The position numbers and the translations under genes were made by a program. The notes under the pieces are model-generated. The model had not been told where the DNA came from, searched no databases, and worked only from the letters and a program-made list of their open reading frames with translations. A stretch of DNA of 64,000 nt from Gammaproteobacteria bacterium (lineage in GTDB: Bacteria; Pseudomonadota; Gammaproteobacteria; Ga0077536). Of the stretch, positions 13,616 to 16,931 are shown in pieces. Location: positions 1 through 64,000 of the forward strand of contig JADLGE010000074.1 of the NCBI GenBank assembly GCA_020849475.1. The letters are read 5' to 3'. Numbering within the stretch: position 1 is the stretch's first letter; the number at the start of each line of letters is the position of its first letter.

Positions 13616-13860
13616 ACGTGTTTCCTTGCCGCGCAGCGCGCCACTTCGCGCCTCGCATTCGAATGTCATGATAGCCGGCGATGCGTCGGGTGCGAGTGTG
13701 CAAACGCCGCAATGTGAAGCACACCGCAAGGCTCGCGCGCACCGCGACGACCGTCGCGAGCGGGTGACGCGCAACCACGGATGTCGTGCGCATCGCGTCC
13801 CCTTGCTGTGCGTTAGCGGCGTGCGGGGGGTCGGCTTGAGGCGGGCGTCATCGCACAGTA

Positions 13861-14021
13861 AGGCCCCTGGTCAAAATTATCTCGTCAACACCGAGGGTGC
13901 GCGTGGGCAGTCGTGGCGAGGCGCGATTCGCAGGTAATAGCAGGGCTATTGCCAAGAATCGCAACGCCGCCATGGCCGCCCACGCGCGGCCGAATGTAGA
14001 GATAATCTTGACCAGGGGCCT
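13861..14021. repeat. 161-nt near-complete palindrome (MITE-like or long-hairpin element)
   Basis: The left arm 13861-13940 and right arm 13946-14021 are inverted copies separated by only 5 nt (CAGGG). The outer 23 bp are almost perfect (AGGCCCCTGGTCAAAATTAT against a copy differing at one base), an inner block GCGCGTGGGC pairs exactly, and CGATTC and AATAG blocks pair near the loop. A less matched stretch with a 4-nt length difference lies around 13884-13897. The element sits in the 442-bp gene-free interval 13616-14057; the remaining 13616-13860 shows nothing I can identify. No clear target-site duplication flanks it. A miniature inverted-repeat transposable element or a long structured RNA are the main options. 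Confidence 0.75.
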
Positions 14022-14057
14022 GAGCATGGCGCGGCCTGCCTCGGTATAGTGCCGGCA

Positions 14058-16931
14058 ATGACTGACCCAGCGCTCTCTTCGACGACCACCCTGGCCGACC
14101 CGGCCGTCACCGAGAGCGACTTGCTCGCGCTGGTTGACGCGGTGGCCGCTGAACTTCATCGCGGCCATCAAGGCCTGCGCGCGGCGAGCCTGGATACTTC
14201 GCTCGAACGCGAGCTCGGCATCGACAGCCTGGCACGCGTCGAGCTCGGCATGCGCATCGAACGTCGCTTCGGGCAGACCATCGCCGATCAAGCACTGTTC
14301 GAAGCCGAGACAGCACGCGACCTGCTGCTGGCGCTGGCCGGCGCGCAGGGTCTGGCCGCCATCGAACTGACACCGCGCGGCGCGCCGACAGCCGCGCAGG
14401 ACGGCGCCATCACCCTGCCCCATGACGCGCGCAACCTGGTCGAGATGCTGGCCTGGCATGCCGAGCGTCACGGCGCGCGTCGCCATATCGAATTGTTCGA
14501 AGACGGTGGTCATGGCCAGGTGCTGAGTTACCGCGAGCTGTGGGACGGCGCCGCGCGCATCGCCGCCGGCCTGCAGGCGGGCGGCCTTGAGGTCGGCGAG
14601 CGCGTGGCCTTGATGCTGCCGAGTGGCGCCGATTATTTCTTTGCTTTCTACGGCGTGCTGCTGGCCGGCGGCGTGCCGGTGCCGATCTATCCGCCGGTGC
14701 GACGCGCGCAGCTGGAAGAACATCTGCGTCGCCAGGGGCGCATCCTCGCCAACGCGCAGGCCGCGGTGCTGATCACGACCGACGATGCGCTGTTGGTGGC
14801 GCGCCTGTTGACGGCCTCGGTGGCGAGCCTCGGCACGGTCACGACCGTCGCCGAACTCGGCAGCCATGGCGGCCGTTTCGAGCGCGCCGCGCCGGCGCCC
14901 GAGGCCCTCGCATTTCTGCAATACACCTCTGGCAGCACCGGCGATCCGAAGGGCGTGATGCTGTCGCACGCCAACCTGCTCGCCAACATCCGCGCCGATG
15001 GCCAAGGCTTGGCCGTCACCAGCGACGACGTGTTCGTGAGCTGGCTGCCGCTCTATCACGATATGGGTCTGATCGGTGCGTGGCTGGGCAGCCTCTACCA
15101 CGCCGTGCCGCTGGTGCTGATGTCGCCGCTGACATTTTTGGCGCGACCGCAGCGCTGGCTGTGGGCGATTCATCGTCACCGCGGCACCTTGTCGGCGGCG
15201 CCGAATTTCGCCTACGAGCTGTGCGTCTCGCGCATTGCCGACAAGGACATCGAAGGGCTCGACCTGTCGAGCTGGCGCCAGGCCTTGAACGGCGCCGAAG
15301 CGATCAGCGCCGCGACCATGACCGCCTTCAGTCGCCGCTATGCGCGCTACGGTCTGCGCGAGGACGCCATGCTGCCGGTCTATGGCCTCGCCGAATGCGC
15401 GGTGGGCCTTGCCTTTTCGCCACTCGGTCGCGGTCCGCGCATCGATGTCATCGACCGCCAGCTACTGGCGCGTGAAGGGCGCGCCGTGGTGGCGCCCGCC
15501 GGTGTGCCGGATGAAGCCACGCGCAGTGTGGTGGCCTGCGGAGTGCCGCTGCCGCGCCACGAACTGCGCGTGGTCGACGACGCGCGCCGCGAGCTGCCGG
15601 AGCGGGTCGAAGGCCATGTGCAGTTTCGCGGCCCCTCGGCCACTGCCGGCTACTGGCGCAACAATGAGGAAACCGCGCGCCTGATCGGCGCCGACGGCTG
15701 GCTGGCGAGCGGTGACCGCGGTTACCTGGTGGGCGGCGAGCTGTATCTCACCGGGCGCGTGAAAGACATCATCATTCGCGCCGGGCGCAACATCTATCCG
15801 GCAGAACTCGAAGATGCCATCGGCGCGCTGGACGGCATACGCAAGGGCCATGTCGCGGTGTTTGGTTCGCCCGATCCGGTCAGCGGCACCGAGCGCGTGG
15901 TGGTGCTGGCCGAGACCCGCAAGCGCAACGCCGAATCGCGCGCCGCGCTGGAGGCGGCCATCAAGGCATTGGCCGCCGATTTGATCGCGACGCCGCCCGA
16001 GGTGGTGGTGTTGGCGCCGCCCAATACGGTGTTGCGCACATCGAGCGGCAAGATTCGACGCGGCGCCTGTCGCGCGCTGTACGAGCAAGGCCATATCGGC
16101 GCGGCCGGCACGGCGGTATGGCTGCAGGTGACGCGTCTGGCGCTGGCCGGCGTCGGCCCACAATGCGTGCGGGCCTGGCGCAATGGCTGCGCATGGCTGT
16201 ATTCGTGTTACGCGTGGAGCGTGTTCGTGCCGCTCGCGCTCAGCACCTGGCTGCTGGCGATGTTGCCGTTGCCAACGCGCTGGGTGTGGCGCGGCGCGCG
16301 TGGCATGGCGCGCCTGCTTGCGCGCCTGACGGGCACCTCGCTGCGTGCGCGCAAGCTGCATGATCTGCCGCCGCCCGGCACGGCCGCGGTGCTGGTGGTC
16401 AATCACCAGAGCTACCTCGACGGCATGTTGATGCTGGCGGTATTGCCACGCCCGCCGCGTTTTCTGATCAAGGCGGAATTGCGCGAGTCGGCGGCCCTGG
16501 CGCGACCTTTGACGCGTCTTGGCGCACTGTTCGTCGAGCGCTTCGATGCCGCTGGCGGACTCGCCGGCATGCAGGCCGCCGCCGCCGCGCTACGCGCTGG
16601 CGAGCTGCTGGTGATCTTTCCGGAAGGCACTTTCAAACGCATGCCCGGCCTGCTGCCTTTTCACATGGGCGCGTTCACCATCGCCGCGCAGACCGCTGCG
16701 CCGCTGGTGCCGGTAGCCATCCGCGGCACACGCGCCATCCTGCGCGCCGGCGCCTGGTTCGTACGCCACGGCGCCATCGAGGTCAGTGCCGGCGACGCCT
16801 TGCGGGCCGGCGGCAGCAATGACATCTGGCGCGAGTCGCTGGCGCTCCGTGACGCTGCACGCAGCCACATCCTCGCCCACTGCGGTGAACCCGATCTCGC
16901 TTACGAATCGAATGCCGTGACGGCTGATTGA
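14058..16931 (+). CDS. ACP - fatty acyl-AMP ligase - lysophospholipid acyltransferase fusion
   Basis: 957 residues in three parts. Residues ~20-100 are an acyl carrier domain with the phosphopantetheine serine in GIDSL (Ser57). Residues ~110-690 are an adenylation domain of the FAAL type, with YTSGSTGDPKG at ~289 and the FAAL-like WLPLYHDMGLIG. After a hydrophobic stretch (~712-745), residues ~760-950 are a PlsC-type acyltransferase with NHQSYLD at ~782 and FPEGTF at ~854. The logical activity is activation of a fatty acid as acyl-AMP, loading onto the in-cis ACP, and transfer to a lyso-lipid or alcohol acceptor at the membrane. It is related in logic to Aas but with the opposite domain order. 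Start ATG at 14058; a GTG three codons earlier is possible. Substrate unknown. Confidence 0.9.
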   Translation: MTDPALSSTTTLADPAVTESDLLALVDAVAAELHRGHQGLRAASLDTSLERELGIDSLARVELGMRIERRFGQTIADQALFEAETARDLLLALAGAQGLAAIELTPRGAPTAAQDGAITLPHDARNLVEMLAWHAERHGARRHIELFEDGGHGQVLSYRELWDGAARIAAGLQAGGLEVGERVALMLPSGADYFFAFYGVLLAGGVPVPIYPPVRRAQLEEHLRRQGRILANAQAAVLITTDDALLVARLLTASVASLGTVTTVAELGSHGGRFERAAPAPEALAFLQYTSGSTGDPKGVMLSHANLLANIRADGQGLAVTSDDVFVSWLPLYHDMGLIGAWLGSLYHAVPLVLMSPLTFLARPQRWLWAIHRHRGTLSAAPNFAYELCVSRIADKDIEGLDLSSWRQALNGAEAISAATMTAFSRRYARYGLREDAMLPVYGLAECAVGLAFSPLGRGPRIDVIDRQLLAREGRAVVAPAGVPDEATRSVVACGVPLPRHELRVVDDARRELPERVEGHVQFRGPSATAGYWRNNEETARLIGADGWLASGDRGYLVGGELYLTGRVKDIIIRAGRNIYPAELEDAIGALDGIRKGHVAVFGSPDPVSGTERVVVLAETRKRNAESRAALEAAIKALAADLIATPPEVVVLAPPNTVLRTSSGKIRRGACRALYEQGHIGAAGTAVWLQVTRLALAGVGPQCVRAWRNGCAWLYSCYAWSVFVPLALSTWLLAMLPLPTRWVWRGARGMARLLARLTGTSLRARKLHDLPPPGTAAVLVVNHQSYLDGMLMLAVLPRPPRFLIKAELRESAALARPLTRLGALFVERFDAAGGLAGMQAAAAALRAGELLVIFPEGTFKRMPGLLPFHMGAFTIAAQTAAPLVPVAIRGTRAILRAGAWFVRHGAIEVSAGDALRAGGSNDIWRESLALRDAARSHILAHCGEPDLAYESNAVTAD

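Follow-up and report, generated by a model that had tools for sequence, protein, structure and literature searches.

We analysed a window of 64,000 nt, by which we mean the whole stretch of contig JADLGE010000074.1 (positions 1 to 64,000) from a gammaproteobacterial genome. It contains a 161-nt palindromic element, and the gene next to it encodes a single 957-aa protein with an acyl carrier domain, a fatty acyl-AMP ligase (FAAL) and a PlsC-type acyltransferase domain (Table 1). A sequence-only reading had described the element as almost one palindrome, and this proved real with exact coordinates. The 161 nt fold as one rod with an energy of -109.7 kcal/mol, and when 20-nt flanks are included it is -127.3, whereas shuffled sequences average -79.5 (z = -10.5; none of 200 shuffles was as good). 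The two terminal arms, 23 nt long, pair with one mismatch, just as was claimed for the outer end, but the fold has a predicted apical loop of 3 nt instead of the 5 nt proposed. The open reading frames crossing the element are only mechanical and there is no transposase gene of its own, which agrees with the claimed absence of coding potential. The position upstream of the FAAL fusion gene was also right: the distance from the element end to the ATG (14058) is 36 nt, and the insertion site is just upstream of the TATAGT box.

Table 1. Features of the element and its neighbourhood in the window (the element plus both TNA flanks spans 13859-14023).
Feature	Position	Strand	Remark
MITE, whole element	13861..14021	+	161 nt; 98% identical second copy and 39 full-length relatives
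Left terminal inverted repeat AGGCCCCTGGTCAAAATTATCTC	13861..13883	+	at both ends of both genome copies
Right terminal inverted repeat	13999..14021	-	pairs with left arm, 23 nt
Left TNA flank, TAA	13859..13861	.	its A doubles as the first element base
Right TNA flank, TGA	14021..14023	.	one transition away from the left TAA
Core hairpin module, AGGCGCG..GGTAATAGC/GCTATTGCCAAG..GCAACGCCG	13912..13972	+	covariance model R1, 82.5 bits, E 5.6e-19 (rough)
TATAGT, -10-like	14045..14050	+	conserved in G001 and G008 ahead of the orthologous gene (sequence comparison)
ACP-FAAL-acyltransferase fusion gene	14058..16931	+	neighbour; context, outside the element

The search of the element against Rfam 15 gave no family at the gathering score. 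The best score was 26.6 bits while 90 was needed, and the matches to miRNA hairpins at this level were rejected as chance. Near the element, the scan for intrinsic terminators (a GC-rich stem with a T run behind it) found none, and no pair passed the promoter consensus scan.

Genes similar to the FAAL fusion were detected in five other genomes (G001, G002, G008, G007 and G017). In the sister species G001, an orthologue of the FAAL gene is present with the conserved blocks CTCGGTATAGTGCC and GTCATCGC, and no element lies between them. With the element set aside, the spacing of the two blocks differs little between window and G001 (25 vs 23 nt, aligned by eye). It means that the site of the window element is empty in G001.

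A second copy lies on another contig of the same genome (G000:C89:26310-26470, minus strand); it is 98% identical with three substitutions and has unrelated flanks. With a profile search of collected loci, 39 full-length copies were identified in seven genomes of the family, their lengths ranging over 158-163 nt. The element was found in several genera of the family with a maximum of about a dozen copies per genome, and forms of about 86-107 nt with the same ends were also present. These copy numbers are underestimates because assemblies break at the element; contigs ending inside or at it were seen in G032 (C53, C183, C339), G002 (C41, C221, C248) and G011 (C264, C308). There was also a tandem in G002 (L021, G002:C221:18828-19148), where two copies stand head to tail with one shared TNA, as if the duplicated target of one copy had received the other. 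An element of about 100 nt in G011 (L094:1521-1623) has the ends of the window family and TAA on both sides, with a different interior.

Counting the first A and the last T of the element in, copies are flanked in the pattern TNA|..|TNA. Among 38 copies, T was found at -2 in 35, A at +2 in 36 and G at +3 in 31. The variable base N is the same on both sides in 19 of 38 copies (shuffle p 0.016), and its purine/pyrimidine class agrees in 29 of 38 (p 0.0016). The window copy has TAA on one side and TGA on the other, so the duplication is imperfect there, and the two TNA copies likewise differ in about half of the copies. Empty sites were searched using the joined flanks of copies. The best one is in G025, where the orthologue reads GCTAAGCAG with a single TAA while G032 reads GCTA-element-AAGCAG, giving an exact 3-bp TAA duplication. 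This G032 copy (L009, on C263) interrupts a reading frame resembling a small XRE-type regulator (by eye), and orthologues of the gene lack the insertion in G025 and G009. Copies of G001 and G002 gave further empty sites.

The element is therefore a MITE, because it is multi-copy, carries 23-bp terminal repeats that are conserved in the family and flanked by TNA, and has orthologous empty sites. The palindrome fits a MITE in every test that could be run, and the data show mobility together with terminal repeats, TNA duplication and empty sites. Among the possibilities named in the sequence-only reading (a non-autonomous element, a transcript-stabilising structure or a processed RNA), the first is thus borne out by the second copy, the multi-copy family in relatives, the TNA flanks, the empty sites and the absence in the sister species. 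A single copy fixed in all relatives with poor arm conservation had been named as the outcome speaking against it, and the opposite was observed.

Of 36 copies, 10 have a flanking TNA that coincides exactly with the end of an open frame of 80 codons or more, while this is the case for 9% of other TNA sites (p = 0.001). Since TAA and TGA (or their complements) are forms of TNA, an insertion there restores the stop codon. The excess at stop codons probably reflects the survivorship of harmless insertions. The orientation of the element relative to genes showed a weak bias, with 13 co-directional and 5 opposite cases; these numbers come from better gene calling, the first estimate having been 12 and 2.

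The 36 genomes of the family yielded no larger or autonomous element with the family's own ends, and none of the 20 DDE_Tnp_1 loci checked had matching ends. In G032 and G002, end matches without a partner were rejected as truncated copies or chance. In a genome of another family of the class (G049), there is an element with ends AGGCATCTCTGATTAAGTC after CTA whose frame encodes an IS5-family transposase, matching NF033581 (1e-29) and PF05598; it is known as the N-terminal part only because the contigs end inside. Another copy of this transposon (L188) is decayed. G049 also has core-bearing elements with ends of the GGAACC(C/T)CTGATCAAGTC type (GGAACCTCTGATCAAGTC-like). The ends are TTAAGGCAATGCTGATCAAG in a related IS5-family transposon annotated on a Citrobacter plasmid and CTAGGGGCTGTTGATCTTTC in one of G001, the latter resembling the CTAGGGTCTGTTGACG ends of larger (about 267-nt) elements. 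Because this style of end is that of an IS5-family transposon in another family, we infer an IS5-type transposase as the putative helper of the window family.

The terminal repeats served as an internal control for counting wobble pairs in the alignment of 39 copies. They have 24 G.U and 23 A.C cells, which is what double-stranded DNA with no preferred strand should give, while the interior has 153 G.U and 16 A.C cells. Cell counts are inflated by related copies, and therefore the counts by column (26 G.U and 6 A.C, sign test p = 5e-4) and by the majority state of each genome (24 and 1) are safer. The pairing of positions 24-26 with 145-147 by RNAalifold was treated as an artefact and excluded from the wobble count. 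Inside the element, one strand is kept foldable. This bias is no proof of RNA because single-stranded DNA also tolerates the G.T wobble.

The 61-nt covariance model R1 was built from the window family and core-bearing elements with other ends. It had matches in 71 of 229 genomes sampled from the class, many of them with at least 20 (up to 23 candidates were scored per genome), and hundreds of elements were found across the class in this way. Most of the best matches were below E 1e-8, though these E-values are rough because the calibration was short. The core sits in elements of two kinds, both with terminal repeats of their own. Elements with one core are about 156-167 nt long, with ends such as AGGAACCTCTGATTAATT. 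Elements with two cores are about 264-271 nt long with the cores inverted and about 107 nt apart; examples of their ends are TAGTGTACTGCGCC.., TAGTGGGCCAAG.., GTACTCCGACAAAG.. and CTAGGGTCTGTTGACG... In G112 (L179) one-core and two-core elements lie less than 1 kb from each other. Searches of plasmids, phages and viral contigs with the window element or the core gave no match. A relative of about 270 nt matched four plasmids, and the hosts named through this relative were Azotobacter, Pseudomonas, Halomonas and Variovorax.

In 62 aligned cores, 91.8% of cells pair compared with 70.4% after shuffling, and changes on both sides were found in 249 cells compared with 72.8. The covariation score was 0.558 compared with 0.165 for shuffles, none of 500 being as high, and structures slid by 1-3 columns scored at most 0.11. 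The ratio of G.U to A.C was 66 to 5. The alignment was fitted to the model and leans towards the structure; it is anchored by the near-invariant CAAGG, CAACGC and loop-side bases. The near-invariant internal loops suggest that they are recognised by something.

In G145 there are many elements of about 160 nt and also at least eight repeats of 58-59 nt (L194-L199), which have the ends of those elements but only about 20 nt in between. Equal TNA flanks were present in five of the six short repeats read (by eye), and none of the repeats carries the core. Since these coreless repeats also spread, the core is not needed for transposition. In structure they are essentially two IS5-type terminal repeats.

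On this basis we consider it very likely that the element is a MITE moved in trans by a transposase, most probably one of the IS5 family, with an interior kept foldable on one strand. This transposase would read the terminal repeats of about 23 bp as double-stranded DNA, and the element would be inserted at C-TNA-G with duplication of TNA. Insertion at the stop codon of a gene would regenerate the stop and so be tolerated. The interior is not random filler: on one strand the ability to form a rod with conserved internal loops is maintained, and this fold may act as RNA once it is transcribed together with its neighbours. For example, it could be a compact 3'-end or leader hairpin which shields the host transcript or is processed from it.

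For the interior, a transcript-stabilising structure or a processed RNA may still apply, as its strand-specific structural conservation would fit an RNA. We favour an RNA hairpin over single-stranded DNA because of the G.U bias and the many copies between co-directional genes or at stops, but the orientation bias is weak. That the interior hairpin instead folds as single-stranded DNA at replication forks, during conjugation or in repair, where a protein of the host or the element binds or cuts it, seems possible but clearly less probable. It resembles the hairpins of IS200/IS605 or REP elements, strand-specific pairing and conserved internal loops suit either nucleic acid, and the elements of about 267 nt have an inverted pair of cores, as REPs do in REPINs. 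Against it, the terminal repeats suffice for mobility as the short coreless forms spread, the TNA duplication and terminal repeats indicate a DDE transposase and not an HUH enzyme, and wobbles of the G.U kind are commonly and stably held by RNA. We think it unlikely that the core is a functionless relic of one ancient MITE whose ends drifted or were exchanged following different IS5-like helpers. Both element sizes in one genome (G112) and the spread of coreless repeats would agree with this, but neutral drift would not keep compensatory pairing and invariant loops over 71 genomes and many families.

Two further explanations are weaker still. A mutational origin of the strand asymmetry, with C to T favoured on the plus strand and no selection on folding, is improbable: such changes do make G.U from G-C, but no asymmetry is seen in the terminal repeats of these elements, full pair replacements (GC, AU, UA and CG at one pair) go far beyond shuffles, and the unpaired loops of the core are almost invariant. 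The least credible is that the element serves the FAAL gene as a fixed regulatory RNA or attenuator, which we practically discard. The element does lie close upstream of the start codon and beside the TATAGT box, but the orthologous gene of the sister species has no element upstream, the same element is found at unrelated loci, and there is no terminator tail.

We give about an even chance to the broader proposal that the core is a novel module of about 61 nt, structured as RNA (or single-stranded DNA), covarying and class-wide, which occurs in many MITE families with unrelated ends and is unneeded for transposition. If true, mobile elements spread a common folded module that is dispensable for their own transposition. 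MITEs normally have conserved ends and a free interior, whereas here the ends vary by taxon while the inner hairpin persists via compensatory changes on one strand. It means that the purpose of a MITE hairpin becomes directly testable, the candidates being stabilisation of transcripts, processing by RNase III, an sRNA or a signal in single-stranded DNA. We did not find a description of the core in the open-access literature, searched by sequence and by terms.

Several known systems can be compared with the element. It shares with IS5-family-derived MITEs the short, non-coding and multi-copy nature, the terminal inverted repeats and the TNA target duplication, and same-style ends occur on the IS5-family transposase gene in G049. 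It differs from them in that a helper with the window family's ends was not found in the 36 family genomes, and in the interior, which is a conserved covarying core common to elements with other ends. REP, BIME and REPIN units, which are mobilised by RAYT, are alike as hairpin units in single or inverted pairs with many intergenic copies, but REPs are without terminal repeats and target duplication while window-type elements have both, and on these two features the window element is not a REP or REPIN. Correia elements and ERIC insert at TA, whereas the target here is C-TNA-G and there is no Rfam match; we placed the window element outside these families by its target. The Correia elements of Neisseria and ERIC are palindromic MITEs of 100-160 bp near genes, with transcripts cut by RNases (PMC10969869). 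QMITE1 and QMITE2 of Coxiella are palindromic MITEs of about 400 and 190 bp to which the sRNAs CbsR3, CbsR13 and CbsR16 map, and full-size copies of QMITE2 have duplications of 7-9 bp (PMC5896051). The likeness, compared by description only, is that of long palindromic gammaproteobacterial MITEs, and the QMITE2 duplications differ from the 3-bp TNA found here.

Other core-bearing elements were noted in the relatives. G032 has at least 11 copies (L116-L126) of an element of about 200-270 nt with ends CCTAGAAACGGCAGTTGAAC, which carries the core hairpin of the window element between other ends. A 314-nt palindromic element in G015 (L016:1295-1608) has ends TAGAGTCGGTCTCAGAATTATTC and two core matches, one good and one weak. 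The CAMATU01 records L099, L104, L106 and L108 (G032) are labelled Klebsiella pneumoniae, but the genome falls within the window's own family, and the label looks wrong.
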